NCBI GenBank assembly: GCA_900313005.1
Contig: ONZJ01000002.1
Location: 231,001 to 295,000, forward strand
Reading direction: 5' to 3'
Source of the DNA: Rhodobacteraceae bacterium EL129
GTDB lineage: Bacteria; Pseudomonadota; Alphaproteobacteria; Rhodobacterales; Rhodobacteraceae
Length of the DNA: 64,000 nucleotides
Both the position numbers and the translations under genes were made by a program. This document shows, piece by piece, positions 1 through 4,278 of the stretch; positions within the stretch are counted from its first letter, which is position 1; the number at the start of each line of letters is the position of its first letter. The notes under the pieces are model-generated. The model was not told where the DNA came from, ran no database searches, and saw only the letters and a program-made list of their open reading frames with translations.

Positions 1-1
1 G

Positions 2-1030
2 TTGTTGGCGATCACGCTGGACCAAATGTCCAAAGCCTGGGTCGTCAAACAGCCCGAGCATTTTGAGCGCGATACGCCGTGGTACATCCGGCGCAAGTAC
101 ACGGTCATGGCCATTGGTGCATTTGTGGCCTTCTTCTTGATCGCACAGGCGGTTGATATTCTTGACACCGTTGGCCGCAAACAAGCCTGGTCCAAAGGCA
201 AAGAGATCGACGGCCTGATCAAGGGGTTCCTGAACATTGACTTCGTACAGGCGATCACCAACTGGCTGCGTTGGTTCCTGAACGTCTGGGTGCTGATCCC
301 CTTCCGCAATGCGCTGCTTTACATCCCGACGCCTGCGTTCATCCTGGGGATTGTGGCCTTCTGCTACTATCTCGGCGGTAAGCGTCCGGCGATCTTCGGC
401 GCGATTTTCTTTACCTTCGTGGCCTTCACCGGCTGGTGGGATCGCTCGGTCATCACGCTCTATGCGGTGATCTCGGCGGTAATCCTGTCGATGTTCATCG
501 GCATTCCCCTGGGCATCGCGGCCTCACGGTCGGATAAATGGTCGCGGCGCATCTTGCTGGCCTGTGATACGGCACAAACCTTCCCCAGCTTCATCTACCT
601 CATACCGGCGATTATGCTCTTTGGGGTGAACGATGTGGCGGTTGTGTTCTCGATCATCATCTTCACCACCGTTCCGCTGACCCGCTACACGATTGAGGGG
701 ATGCGCACGGTGCCTGCCGAGATGACCGAGGCTGCCGATATGTCCGGCGCCACCAGAAAGCAAAAGCTGTGGTCCGTGCAATTGCCATTGGCCCTGCCCA
801 CCATGGGCGTCGGGTTCAACCAGGCGATCATGTTTGCCTTCTTCATGGTGATCATCGCGGCCTTTATCGGCACGCAGGATCTGGGTCAGGAGCTGCAGAA
901 AACGCTGGCGGGGACCGAACTGGGCAAGAACATCGTGCTTGGTATGAACGTGTCCCTGATGGCGTTGACCTTCGACATGACAATCATGGCGTGGTCAGAG
1001 GCCCGGAAAAAAGCACTGGGATTGGCGTAA
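2..1030 (+). CDS. ABC transporter permease, glycine betaine/proline (ProW) type, 5'-truncated by window edge
   Basis: Inner-membrane permease of a quaternary-amine type ABC importer. The visible 342 residues open with LLAITLDQ, which resembles the last helix of a complete ProW domain. A charged linker and a second full permease domain follow. The second domain has several hydrophobic segments and the cytoplasmic EAA loop (EAADMSGATRKQKLW, about residues 240-254) that contacts the ATPase. I therefore read this as the C-terminal half of a fused two-domain permease, not a complete gene; the TTG at base 2 is probably an internal Leu codon. The stop overlaps the next start (TAATG), so it is in one transcription unit with the cupin and DUF1989-GcvT genes, which suggests they act on its substrate. 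The exact substrate cannot be read from the sequence. Confidence 0.85.
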   Translation: MLAITLDQMSKAWVVKQPEHFERDTPWYIRRKYTVMAIGAFVAFFLIAQAVDILDTVGRKQAWSKGKEIDGLIKGFLNIDFVQAITNWLRWFLNVWVLIPFRNALLYIPTPAFILGIVAFCYYLGGKRPAIFGAIFFTFVAFTGWWDRSVITLYAVISAVILSMFIGIPLGIAASRSDKWSRRILLACDTAQTFPSFIYLIPAIMLFGVNDVAVVFSIIIFTTVPLTRYTIEGMRTVPAEMTEAADMSGATRKQKLWSVQLPLALPTMGVGFNQAIMFAFFMVIIAAFIGTQDLGQELQKTLAGTELGKNIVLGMNVSLMALTFDMTIMAWSEARKKALGLA

Positions 1031-1413
1031 TGGCGAAACTTGCGGATCATCGAACGGTCGCAAATTTCGACCCCGACACGTTTGAACGTATGGAAATGGA
1101 AGGCCTGCCCGACGAAGACGTGGTTTGGCGCAACGTTTCCTACGATCAGGCAACGGGGCAGGGCAGCTATCTGATGATCATGGCACCTGGCACGCGATGC
1201 AATCCGCACCGTCACAACGGCCCCGAGGAATTCTATGTGATCGAAGGCGATCTGGTCGATTGTGACGGGTTCGCCTATGGCGCAGGGGATTTCGTGTCGC
1301 TCAGTGGCGGCTCGGCGCATTTCAGCATTTCCCACACGGGCTGCAAACTGGTGGTCACCCACCGCGGCCCGATCGACGATCTTTCCATGCAAGAGCTTGA
1401 GGCCGTGTCATGA
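1030..1413 (+). CDS. Small cupin-domain protein
   Basis: A 127-residue single-domain cupin. The first cupin motif is visible as HRHNGPEEFYVIEGD (two His, a Glu and the G-D turn), and the second as GDFVSLSGGSAHFSISH, so a metal site of the His-His-Glu-His kind is plausible. The ATG shares its A with the permease stop, and its own stop overlaps the next start (ATGA), so the three genes are translationally coupled. An in-frame upstream extension inside the permease was rejected because this ATG fits the overlap and the fold. The role is unknown; position suggests an enzyme or sensor in the same small-molecule pathway. Confidence 0.8.
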   Translation: MAKLADHRTVANFDPDTFERMEMEGLPDEDVVWRNVSYDQATGQGSYLMIMAPGTRCNPHRHNGPEEFYVIEGDLVDCDGFAYGAGDFVSLSGGSAHFSISHTGCKLVVTHRGPIDDLSMQELEAVS

Positions 1414-3815
1414 ACGTCAACACCACGATAACACCTGTCTTTGAATCACCTTACGAGAGGGCAGGGGTGCTGACACCCGGCCTACCAATCTTGCCGCATG
1501 GCACTGAACGTCATCCAGTTCCGGGCGGTGGGTCACGGGCTGTGCCGATCTACAAGGGCGATGAAATATCAGTGCAGGACCGCGATGGGTTGCAACCCTG
1601 CGAATTGGTGTTTTTTACGCCCGATGGCACCTCTGATGCCGGGATGCTGGGCGTGTCTGCTATGGGTCGTCCTGATGGTGTGATCTCGGTTTTGGCCAAT
1701 GGGTCGGTCTCAGGTGCCAAGGTGGCCCACTCACTGAAGACCGCCGGTTTTGATCTGGGCCGTGCTGAGGCGATCAAGATTTTCAGCGAAGGCTCTCTTC
1801 CCGGCGATATGGTGACCTATCACGCAGGCTGTGACGGCTTGCTGATCCTCGCGGCCCCCGGTGGCCCGATGGATCCCGGCGAACAAAACCCACCTTCTGA
1901 TCTGATCCTATACATTCGCCGTGCAGATCCCGGCCTGCCCAAGGGCGAGCTGGCCCCGCCGGACCCGCTGGCTGATGCGTTGGTGGATTTCAATATTCTG
2001 CCGGGTGAGGCCAAAAGCTATGAGGTCAAGAAAGGCGAATACATCCAGATCCTGGATGTGCAGGGCCGCGAGTGCTCGGATTTTCAGGCGTTTTCGCGCC
2101 GCGCACTCGACAAAGGCCTTGAGCGTGAGATTGACCCAACCACCACACGCGCCTTGATGGGCAACCTCTATCCGCTGCCCGGCATCTTCTCGAAATACTG
2201 GAGTTCCGATCAGGAACCGCTGGTCGAGATCGTGCGCGACACCTGTGGACGGCATGACACCTTTGGCCTGGCCTGCACCGCACGCTATTACGAGGATCTG
2301 GGCTACCCCGGCCACGTGAACTGTTCCGACAATATGAACAAGGATCTGGCGCAATATGGCATCCGTCCCCGGGGCGGCTGGCCTGCGATCAACTTCTTCT
2401 TCAACACCATGCTGGATGACACCAATGCCATCGGCATGGATGATCCATGGTCGCGCCCCGGCGACTATGTGCTCTTGCAGGCGCAGACCGATCTGGTCTG
2501 CATTTCCAGCGCCTGCCCCTGCGACGTGGATCCAGCCAATGGCTGGAACCCAACCGACATTCAAATCCGTACCTATGGTGCAAACGAAGACTTCAGCCGT
2601 TCTATGGGCTACAGAAAATCAGCGGAGGCAGACTTGGAAGAAACCAAGCAAACCGGATTTCATGACTGCTTTGCGCGTCACACCCGGGATTTTGTAGAAT
2701 ATGCGGGCTATTGGCTGCCCAATCAGATGTCCAACCACGGGGCGATTGCCGAATATTGGGCCTGCCGCGAGAAGGCCGCGATCATGGACCTGTCGCCGCT
2801 TCGTAAATACGAAGTGACCGGGCCAGACGCTGAAAAGCTGATGCAGCACTGCGTCACACGCAACATGAAGAAACTGGCCGTGGGGCAACTGGTCTATACC
2901 GCCATGTGCTATGAGCACGGCGGCATGATCGACGACGGCACCGTGTTCCGTCTGGGCGAGACGAACTTCCGCTGGATCGGCGGCAATGATGACAGCGGGT
3001 TGTGGTTGAAAAAACAGGCCAAGCTGTTGGGCCTGAACGCCTGGGTACGTTCGTCCACTGATCAGCTGCACAATGTCGCCGTTCAAGGCCCATTGAGCCG
3101 TGAGATCCTCAGCAAGGTATTCTACACGGCCCCCACCGTGGCAACCATCGAAGAAATGGCACCCTTCCGATTTGCCGTGGCCCGTCTTGGTGATGTGCAG
3201 GGCAAGGCTGTGGTGCTGGGCCGCGCCGGGTATTCTGGTGAATTGGGGTATGAGATTTTCTGCCACCCTAAAGATGCGGTCGAAGTCTTCGACGCCATCT
3301 GGGAAGTGGGTGAGCCCATGGGCATGGTGCCCTTTGGCCTCGCCGCACTGGATTTGGTACGGATCGAAGCCGGGCTGATATTTGCAGGCTCTGAATTTGA
3401 TGACCAGACCGATCCATGGGAGGCTGGCATCGGGTTTACCGTGCCACTGAAATCGAAAGAGGATGATTTCATCGGTCGCACAGCCCTCGAAGAGCGCAAG
3501 GCGCATCCCCATCGCAAGCTGGTTGGGCTTGAGGTCGAAGGCGGCATCGTTGCCAGCCCCGGGGATTGTGTGCGCATTGGCAAGGCGCAGGTGGGCGAGA
3601 TCACCTCGGCGATGAAATCCCCCGTCCTTGGCAAAAACATCGCGCTGGCGCGGGTCTCGGTCACCCATTCCGAAATCGGCACCGAGATCGAGATTGGCCA
3701 GTTGGATGGTCTGCAAAAGCGTCTCAAGGCCAAGATCGTGCCCTATCCTCATTTCGATCCCACCAAAGCCCGTGTGAAAGGTGATTACAGTCAACCTCTG
3801 ACGCCCGAGGGTTAA
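1410..3815 (+). CDS. Tandem DUF1989-like domains fused to a GcvT-type aminomethyl/methyltransferase
   Basis: An 801-residue multidomain cytoplasmic protein. Residues about 25-185 and 200-395 look like two DUF1989 (urea-carboxylase-associated) units: compare RAVPIYKGDEISVQDRDG with KSYEVKKGEYIQILDVQG at equivalent points. The second unit has the Cys pair ACPCD followed by NPTDIQIRTY. Residues about 425-801 are GcvT-like: folate-binding domain with HGGMIDDG, containing the conserved Asp of this family, then the C-terminal barrel (FIGRTALEE). In the family, GcvT proteins pass a one-carbon unit to tetrahydrofolate, and DUF1989 proteins include the carboxyguanidine deiminase subunits. I infer an enzyme that deaminates and/or demethylates a substrate brought in by the upstream ABC system. 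The substrate is unknown. A DMSP-demethylase-like role is less likely because of the DUF1989 half. Confidence 0.8.
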   Translation: MNVNTTITPVFESPYERAGVLTPGLPILPHGTERHPVPGGGSRAVPIYKGDEISVQDRDGLQPCELVFFTPDGTSDAGMLGVSAMGRPDGVISVLANGSVSGAKVAHSLKTAGFDLGRAEAIKIFSEGSLPGDMVTYHAGCDGLLILAAPGGPMDPGEQNPPSDLILYIRRADPGLPKGELAPPDPLADALVDFNILPGEAKSYEVKKGEYIQILDVQGRECSDFQAFSRRALDKGLEREIDPTTTRALMGNLYPLPGIFSKYWSSDQEPLVEIVRDTCGRHDTFGLACTARYYEDLGYPGHVNCSDNMNKDLAQYGIRPRGGWPAINFFFNTMLDDTNAIGMDDPWSRPGDYVLLQAQTDLVCISSACPCDVDPANGWNPTDIQIRTYGANEDFSRSMGYRKSAEADLEETKQTGFHDCFARHTRDFVEYAGYWLPNQMSNHGAIAEYWACREKAAIMDLSPLRKYEVTGPDAEKLMQHCVTRNMKKLAVGQLVYTAMCYEHGGMIDDGTVFRLGETNFRWIGGNDDSGLWLKKQAKLLGLNAWVRSSTDQLHNVAVQGPLSREILSKVFYTAPTVATIEEMAPFRFAVARLGDVQGKAVVLGRAGYSGELGYEIFCHPKDAVEVFDAIWEVGEPMGMVPFGLAALDLVRIEAGLIFAGSEFDDQTDPWEAGIGFTVPLKSKEDDFIGRTALEERKAHPHRKLVGLEVEGGIVASPGDCVRIGKAQVGEITSAMKSPVLGKNIALARVSVTHSEIGTEIEIGQLDGLQKRLKAKIVPYPHFDPTKARVKGDYSQPLTPEG

Positions 3816-3852: not shown

Positions 3853-4278
3853 ATGGCAATCGCTCAGATGAACTGGGGGCGTATGAAACACGCCCCCGAC
3901 GACCCCCGCTTGTCCGAATTCATGGCATCGCTGGACGAGGTTTACGCCCTCGCGGAAGCGCATCCGGGGTTCATCTGGCGCATTCCGGATGATGCAGCGG
4001 CCACAGGACTGGCGGCGCTGGGGTATGACAATCGCATCTCGGCCACGGTCTCGGTCTGGACAGATGTCCACAGCCTGCGGGATTATACGTTCAATTCGCT
4101 TCATGGCACATATCTCGAGCGCAAATCCGAGTGGTTCGAGGTGGTGGACGGCCCGCAACTGGTGATCTGGGACGTGGCCACCGATGCGCGCCCCGATTTC
4201 GCTGAGGCCTTTGCCAAGCTGGACAACCTGCGTGCGCATGGCGATACGCCTGAGGCCTATGGCTGGCCCAAGGTCTAA
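3853..4278 (+). CDS. DUF3291 family protein
   Basis: 141 residues with the typical DUF3291 opening (MAIAQMNWGRMKHAPDDPR) and the later SVWTDVHSLRDYTF and WFEVVDGPQLVIWDV stretches. The fold is expected to be a ferredoxin-like dimeric alpha-beta barrel resembling antibiotic-biosynthesis monooxygenases. No catalytic function is established for the family. It follows the fusion gene by 37 bases on the same strand and probably belongs to the same transcription unit. Confidence 0.8.
   Translation: MAIAQMNWGRMKHAPDDPRLSEFMASLDEVYALAEAHPGFIWRIPDDAAATGLAALGYDNRISATVSVWTDVHSLRDYTFNSLHGTYLERKSEWFEVVDGPQLVIWDVATDARPDFAEAFAKLDNLRAHGDTPEAYGWPKV

Follow-up and report, generated by a model that had tools for sequence, protein, structure and literature searches.

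A probable trimethylamine N-oxide demethylase encoded with its importer in a Rhodobacteraceae bacterium, and a gene module that may act on dimethylamine

We analyzed a window of 64,000 nucleotides from the genome of Rhodobacteraceae bacterium EL129 (assembly GCA_900313005.1, contig ONZJ01000002.1, positions 231,001 to 295,000 of the forward strand), in which a gene at positions 1410-3815 encodes a protein that joins two DUF1989-type units to a GcvT domain. This gene is very probably tdm, whose product, a trimethylamine N-oxide (TMAO) demethylase (trimethylamine-oxide aldolase), would split TMAO brought into the cell by the ATP-binding cassette (ABC) importer TmoXVW. The protein is an added member of a known family, and its relatives define a large branch of that family, here called clade A, which carries a CPCD signature and is tied to the TMAO importer. 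What is new is an uncharacterized set of genes in the genomes of these relatives, named here after its member u136. The parts of the tdm gene are as follows.

1410..3815, plus strand: tdm, TMAO demethylase, 801 amino acids (NF053776; PDB 9q59)
1491..1973, plus strand: N-terminal DUF1989-like unit, residues 28-188, predicted from a structure model, fold search and hhalign
1995..2498, plus strand: second DUF1989 domain, metal-binding, residues 196-363 (PF09347, 162.8 bits)
2079..2525, plus strand: metal-site residues D224, C289, H302, C305, C369 and D372, with the clade A signature C371, from alignment
2661..3437, plus strand: GcvT folate-binding-type domain, residues 418-676 (PF01571, 222.9 bits)
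3513..3758, plus strand: GcvT C-terminal barrel, residues 702-783 (PF08669, 63.8 bits)

Against NF053776, the model for the TMAO demethylase TmaoDeMthMsil, the protein scores 1192.9 bits where the curated equivalog cut-off is 1100, with residues 27-790 aligned to profile positions 8-762 of 763. The other NCBIfam models that match it, ten as listed, all score under their cut-offs; those for GcvT are not reached (TIGR00528, 217 against 235.85 bits; NF001567, 251.3 against 300 bits), nor are those for the urea-amidolyase-associated proteins (UAAP), TIGR03424 at residues 191-386 (97.6 against 284.7 bits) and TIGR03425 at residues 196-398 (65.5 against 205.95 bits). In the PDB, the TMAO demethylase chains 9q59 and 9q5a align at residues 31-791 with 943.9 and 942 bits, and the next chain scores 205; the 9q59 chain itself shares 92.6% identity with the protein of locus L181, from P. 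aminovorans. The three-part fusion is not new: the TMAO demethylase family is known from NF053776 and from the structures 9q59, 9q5l and 9q5a, and its three-domain layout, including a third, DUF1989-like domain without the zinc cysteines, has already been published (PMC12560246). That layout, DUF1989-like plus DUF1989 plus GcvT, is what Pfam, the structure model and the fold search find in the 801-residue protein, which shares with the M. silvestris enzyme and the solved structures its metal-site residues, its changed folate contacts and its length as well. It has a GcvT domain (residues 418-783) in common with the GcvT of the glycine cleavage system and with the GcvT parts of dimethylglycine oxidase and sarcosine oxidase alpha; unlike glycine cleavage GcvT, it falls under the GcvT cut-offs and has its GcvT domain fused to two DUF1989 units.

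The first of these units, which has no Pfam match, is predicted to have the DUF1989 fold. Its structure model reaches a predicted local distance difference test (pLDDT) score of 92.8, DUF1989 structures stand at the top of the fold searches with this model (Foldseek and the VIA lists) as the sole strong matches, and hhalign aligns the first and second units as profiles. The prediction of two DUF1989-fold units fused to a complete GcvT domain thus describes a real architecture, and the possibility that the first 400 residues might not be DUF1989 at all falls away with the fold of the first unit. The role of this unit is probably structural. According to PMC12560246, neither the N-terminal part nor the GcvT part of M. 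silvestris Tdm is active when isolated, so that in that enzyme the N-terminal half cannot be dispensed with, contrary to the possibility entertained for the protein studied here.

For comparison we assembled 168 relatives (80 from named loci, 85 from a sample of the family, two from plasmid records, and the copy in the window itself), which were grouped by identity to the window protein into clades A (110), B (41) and C (17). A relative counted as full-length if more than 60% of the query lay in one BLAST match, a definition that takes in the truncated L087, L161 and L180; the duplicates L001 and L090-L093 were dropped beforehand, and dereplication of sequences at least 99% alike reduced clade A to 101 and left B and C unchanged. 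The first tree, built from 164 of 190 rows and rooted with clade C, recovers clade A, including the window protein, with a support of 0.97, and places clade B, with 9q59 and the P. aminovorans protein, on the other branch with a support of 0.997. One protein counted in B (L162, genome G083) is basal to both. Small low-G+C genomes of SAR11 type, as we read them from their smallness and composition, fall on the B side of the tree. The Tdm of Ruegeria pomeroyi is 63% identical to that of P. aminophilus (PMC4543880), which suggests that this sequence, too, is placed in clade B.

In M. silvestris Tdm, C263, C279 and C343 are described as the zinc cysteines, and H276, D346 and D198 as the iron and bridge residues (PMC12560246). 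Residues D224, C289, H302, C305, C369 and D372 of the window protein correspond to D198, C263, H276, C279, C343 and D346, an offset of +22 between M. silvestris numbering and the 9q59 chain being inferred from matching residue types, and not one of the six differs in any of the 159 dereplicated relatives. The same source also names the backbone of A344, a position at which both the 9q59 chain and the window protein have a proline. It further reports that two residues that contact folate in E. coli GcvT are changed in Tdm, to F487 and L618, and the window protein has F513 and L644 at these places. The GcvT domain is complete, as predicted, and these changes make the folate dependence that had been ascribed to it doubtful. 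Among the 110 clade A rows before dereplication, the first contact is F in 55, Y in 54 and L in 1, and the second is L in 107; with F and Y nearly even, the first contact is not diagnostic. M. silvestris Tdm converts TMAO to dimethylamine (DMA) and formaldehyde in a 1:1 ratio, with or without O2 (PMC12560246). The clade A copy would perform the same reaction, with the metal site of its second DUF1989 domain splitting TMAO into DMA and formaldehyde without external O2, and with the GcvT half receiving or buffering the formaldehyde, possibly on tetrahydrofolate.

Directly ahead of tdm lie two genes of the same run.

1..1030, plus strand: 3′ part of tmoW, predicted permease gene of the TMAO ABC importer (PF00528; upstream neighbors)
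1030..1413, plus strand: ChrR-like cupin gene, 127 amino acids (PF12973, 53.4 bits)

The whole tmoW encodes 657 amino acids and begins upstream of the window (L009:9057-11030); ahead of it come an ATPase gene, a gene for a TmoX-like binding protein and a divergent LysR-type gene (L009). The nearest NCBIfam models of the permease are those of choline and glycine betaine/proline permeases, all under their cut-offs. This binding protein, encoded just beyond the window edge, has 84.2% identity to 4xz6, the TmoX of R. pomeroyi, whose TMAO pocket is formed by W55, W102, F106, E131, W177, F220 and W222 (PMC8918994), and all seven of these residues recur in it (WWFEWFW). From this identity and the shared pocket, the ABC system is recognized at the sequence level as the TMAO importer TmoXVW; it had been predicted as a betaine-type ABC permease, of which the ABC permease stands and the generic betaine specificity does not. 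Compared with tmoXVW of R. pomeroyi, the genes here form a single run with the cupin gene and tdm, in the order X, V, W. The cupin gene starts at the last base of the tmoW stop codon and tdm starts inside the end of the cupin gene, which agrees with the overlaps noted originally. The broader proposal of a single pathway in which an N-methylated substrate is imported by the coupled ABC system and demethylated is supported too, with TMAO as the probable substrate and TmoXVW as the importer.

Among dereplicated loci with at least 4.5 kb of upstream sequence, 67 of the 92 in clade A carry a TmoX-like gene on the tdm strand no more than 6 kb upstream, as do none of the 34 in clade B and none of the 12 in clade C, and the pocket of the dereplicated clade A binding proteins reads WWFEWFW in 62 of 67 and WWMEWFW in the other five. 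The cupin gene is an optional member of the operon and not a general one: on the same basis it adjoins tdm in 15 of the 92 loci of clade A and in none of the 34 of B or the 12 of C; a ChrR-like cupin was noted beside tdm in 18 clade A loci besides our own. Its sole match in the PDB is ChrR (3o14, E 1.2e-5), and its metal-type residues are conserved, with H60, H62, E66 and E67 in 22 of 22 aligned rows and H97 in 21 of 22. Tmm, the trimethylamine (TMA) monooxygenase whose product is TMAO, has a homologue in most genomes with Tdm, 26 of 29 in clade A and 39 of 40 in clade B, and in none of the 11 genomes of the family that are without Tdm. The homologue in the EL129 genome is 72% identical to the P. 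aminovorans gene that stands beside the tdm of that organism.

Several observations weigh against a TMAO demethylase in clade A. The window protein is at some distance from the solved enzyme (54.6% identity to 9q59), and the latter is absent from the fold lists of the first unit, the library's holding of 9q59 being unchecked. NF053776 covers clades A and B alike, so that passing its cut-off cannot tell the one from the other, and a public record labels one clade A copy merely as an aminomethyltransferase family protein and one clade B copy as Tdm. The window protein differs from the Tdm of 9q59 in its separate branch, in the importer and cupin genes directly ahead of it, and in carrying CPCD in place of CPDD beside a metal ligand; at position 371, Cys is the residue in 91 of the 101 dereplicated clade A proteins, and Asp is the residue in 40 of the 41 from clade B and in all 17 from clade C. 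As for the importer, a TmoX-like gene is missing upstream of tdm in 25 of the 92 clade A loci, and among the 67 TmoX-like proteins encoded at the others, 14 are just 45-70% identical to the TmoX of EL129. The identity to 9q59, the Cys for Asp and the well-supported separate branch could indicate that clade A is a paralogue whose substrate has shifted to another N-oxide or methylated amine, with clade B as the real Tdm. We consider this quite unlikely, as clade A keeps all six metal-site residues, is linked to a TMAO importer and is often linked to a tmm homologue. Moreover, when the three best candidates of each genome were scored in 295 genomes of the family, clade A was found in 29, clade B in 40 and both together in none, where about four overlaps would be expected; such mutual absence is expected of interchangeable enzymes. 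Farther removed still is the chemistry first proposed for this protein, in which the DUF1989 units deaminate or decarboxylate a guanidino or amidino substrate of the carboxyguanidine type and GcvT demethylates it. DUF1989 is common to the window protein and the UAAP1 and UAAP2 proteins, as the TIGR03424 and TIGR03425 matches attest, and UAAP1/UAAP2 DUF1989 proteins are linked to guanidine use. The matches are nevertheless far under the UAAP cut-offs, the importer has a TMAO pocket, and 26 of 29 clade A genomes have a Tmm homologue; nothing found here supports the guanidine or amidine reaction, which we rejected and regard as having a negligible chance of being correct.

The EL129 genome (G000, 99.68% complete) contains no PF11927 candidate and hence no DmmC, the one Dmm protein that was sought genome-wide; this leaves the DMA formed by Tdm with no known way out. 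PF11927 matches occur in 228 of the 295 family genomes, for which reason we discarded the notion that every match is DmmC and drew a line for the DmmC class at 215 bits or more, our own choice, at a gap between 215.1 and 199.0. DmmA is also present in every one of the 13 loci that DmmC matched by BLAST, among them the locus of the query. Defined in this way, DmmC occurs in 3 of 29 clade A genomes versus 36 of 40 clade B genomes of the family. That clade A itself is a Tdm free of the DMA monooxygenase DmmDABC was likewise rejected, because DmmC is present in G451 and G601, the two genomes outside the family that have a clade A protein (assigned to A by identity, in G451 also by the tree). A better correlate of the absence of DmmC is u136, which was found by following recurrent neighbors of clade A tdm genes. 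In the EL129 genome it belongs to a module located about 100 kb from tdm, in L231 (contig C2:120500-140400).

L231:7332-14046 (G000:C2:127831-134545): whole module, GS2-A2-B2-C2-u136-CN hydrolase-u196
L231:7332-8807: GS2, glutamine-synthetase-like, 28% identical to the genome's own GmaS
L231:8890-9825: A2, of the class II amidotransferase kind, 36% identical to its own MgsA
L231:9813-10682: B2, of the GXGXG protein kind, 40% identical to its own MgsB
L231:10742-12106: C2, of the flavin mononucleotide (FMN) glutamate synthase kind, 52% identical to its own MgsC
L231:12185-12604: u136, matching no Pfam or NCBIfam model
L231:12614-13462: CN hydrolase, amidase-like
L231:13459-14046: u196, matching no Pfam or NCBIfam model

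Between GS2 and a set of SoxA, SoxD and SoxB homologues on the opposite strand stand a class I amidotransferase and a GntR-type regulator. Across the 13 loci (12 genomes) that extend 6.5 kb or more to either side of u136, GS2, A2, B2 and C2 are present in all 13, u196 in 12, tdm in 11 and the CN hydrolase in 10. The GS2-A2-B2-C2-u136 core occurs in the SAR11-type genomes as well, and the plasmid search gave no u136 match. The u136 protein is strongly conserved, with columns that are on average 72% identical in an alignment of 28 sequences, and its structure model has a pLDDT of 52. The module consists of the same kinds of genes as GmaS-MgsABC of the N-methylglutamate pathway for monomethylamine, unlike which it adds u136, the CN hydrolase and u196. 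Both sets are present in the EL129 genome, where MgsABC-type genes stand beside the GmaS-type gene. In the part of the open-access literature searched (dimethylglutamate, glutamyldimethylamide, and DMA with SAR11), no description of a u136 module was found.

Among the 69 family genomes with Tdm of clade A or B, u136 is found in 23, all with clade A and EL129 among them, DmmC of the defined class in 39, both in none and neither in 7; u136 is absent from the 11 family genomes without Tdm. In 19 of these 23 genomes no more than 15 kb separate it from tdm, EL129 being one of the other four. Before the search of other families, the prediction was written down that u136 would be missing from their DmmC genomes, and this held: in 31 genomes with a Tdm-like protein (two of which, G625 and G636, have just 46 and 44% identity in the longest matching piece and are perhaps neither A nor B), u136 occurs in 0 of 3 DmmC genomes and 25 of the 28 others, within 25 kb of tdm in 14 of the 25. 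All told, 100 genomes with Tdm-like proteins divide into 48 with u136 alone, 42 with DmmC alone, none with both and 10 with neither, an exclusion for which Fisher's test gives p = 7e-19. As independent evidence, this value was rejected as over-strong. On the Tdm tree, 4 switches suffice to explain the 81 placed genomes that have either u136 or DmmC (on a smaller tree, which had lost genomes to dereplication, 3 suffice; the count omits 11 of the 100 genomes left unfetched and 8 placed genomes with neither), so that the genomes are far from independent. A GmaS-type gene was found in 23 of 29 clade A genomes, 38 of 40 clade B genomes and 3 of 11 genomes without Tdm.

These distributions, together with the kinds of genes in the module, lead us to propose a route for DMA in the EL129 genome by way of this glutamate-linked module elsewhere on the chromosome and not by DmmDABC. 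By analogy with GmaS, GS2 would join DMA to glutamate to give the gamma-glutamyl amide of DMA, and by analogy with MgsABC, the second MgsABC-like complex with u136 would turn this product into N,N-dimethylglutamate. Enzymes resembling SoxBDAG or N-methylglutamate dehydrogenase might then demethylate it by way of N-methylglutamate to glutamate, with the methyl groups passing onto tetrahydrofolate. Weak use of DMA has been measured for GmaS of Rhodovulum, with a Km of 16 mM versus 27 uM for monomethylamine (PMC7948447). A study of SAR11 describes two paralogous soxBDAG operons, with the suggestion that they might demethylate unknown substrates, and its pathway figure marks unidentified steps (PMC3160333). 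It is conceivable, if somewhat short of an even chance, that many Tdm genomes without DMA monooxygenase use this GS2/MgsABC-like/u136 route and that it fills a gap in the degradation of TMA and TMAO in the ocean.

Alternatively, the module may serve as a second system for monomethylamine or ammonium assimilation, or for another amine, in which case the exclusion of DmmDABC would reflect lineage history; we judge this to have close to an even chance. It would account for the small number of switches on the Tdm tree, and it agrees with the homology of GS2, A2, B2 and C2 to GmaS and MgsABC, which act on monomethylamine. The u136 protein, with no known family and a model that is not usable, gives no direction; u136 is also found in 2 of 39 genomes of the class without Tdm (G301 and G310), and a tenth of the genomes with Tdm-like proteins have neither system. 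On the other hand, a GmaS-type gene is also present in 18 of the 23 family genomes with u136, which means that the module is not simply a replacement for GmaS. The success of the prior prediction in other families, and the linkage of the module to tdm on separate branches of the Tdm tree and in SAR11-type genomes, likewise favor the proposed DMA route. Many TMAO degraders, SAR11 included, have been reported to be without dmmDABC, and this absence was interpreted as a metabolic bottleneck to which DMA in marine aerosol might be due (PMC5520151). A later paper reports that Pelagibacter HTCC1062 can grow with TMAO and suggests that some enzyme, as yet unknown, replaces DmmDABC (PMC8918994). The u136 module offers a concrete, deletable candidate for the DMA step that is missing in genomes without dmmDABC. 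Were the DMA route correct, the bottleneck would largely vanish, and surveys that rely on dmm markers would undercount DMA users.

Clade C (L163-L179) comprises 17 DUF1989-GcvT proteins that have 37-42% identity to the window protein and score under the Tdm cut-off; in many cases an ABC transporter is encoded downstream. Six aligned binding proteins of these transporters have a different pocket, WWQ[AST]WY[YW] or WWWSWYW, and clade C co-occurs with A in 4 genomes and with B in 2. It is possibly a demethylase of another methylated amine.

Directly after tdm, the window encodes a DUF3291 protein (3853-4278, plus strand). Among the loci compared, a relative of this protein (67% identity) follows tdm in just one clade A locus, L012, besides our own. 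GcvT-containing proteins are found at 27 places in the 3.9 Mb EL129 genome, and several of them lie in open frames of 800-1000 residues, the size of dimethylglycine and sarcosine oxidases.

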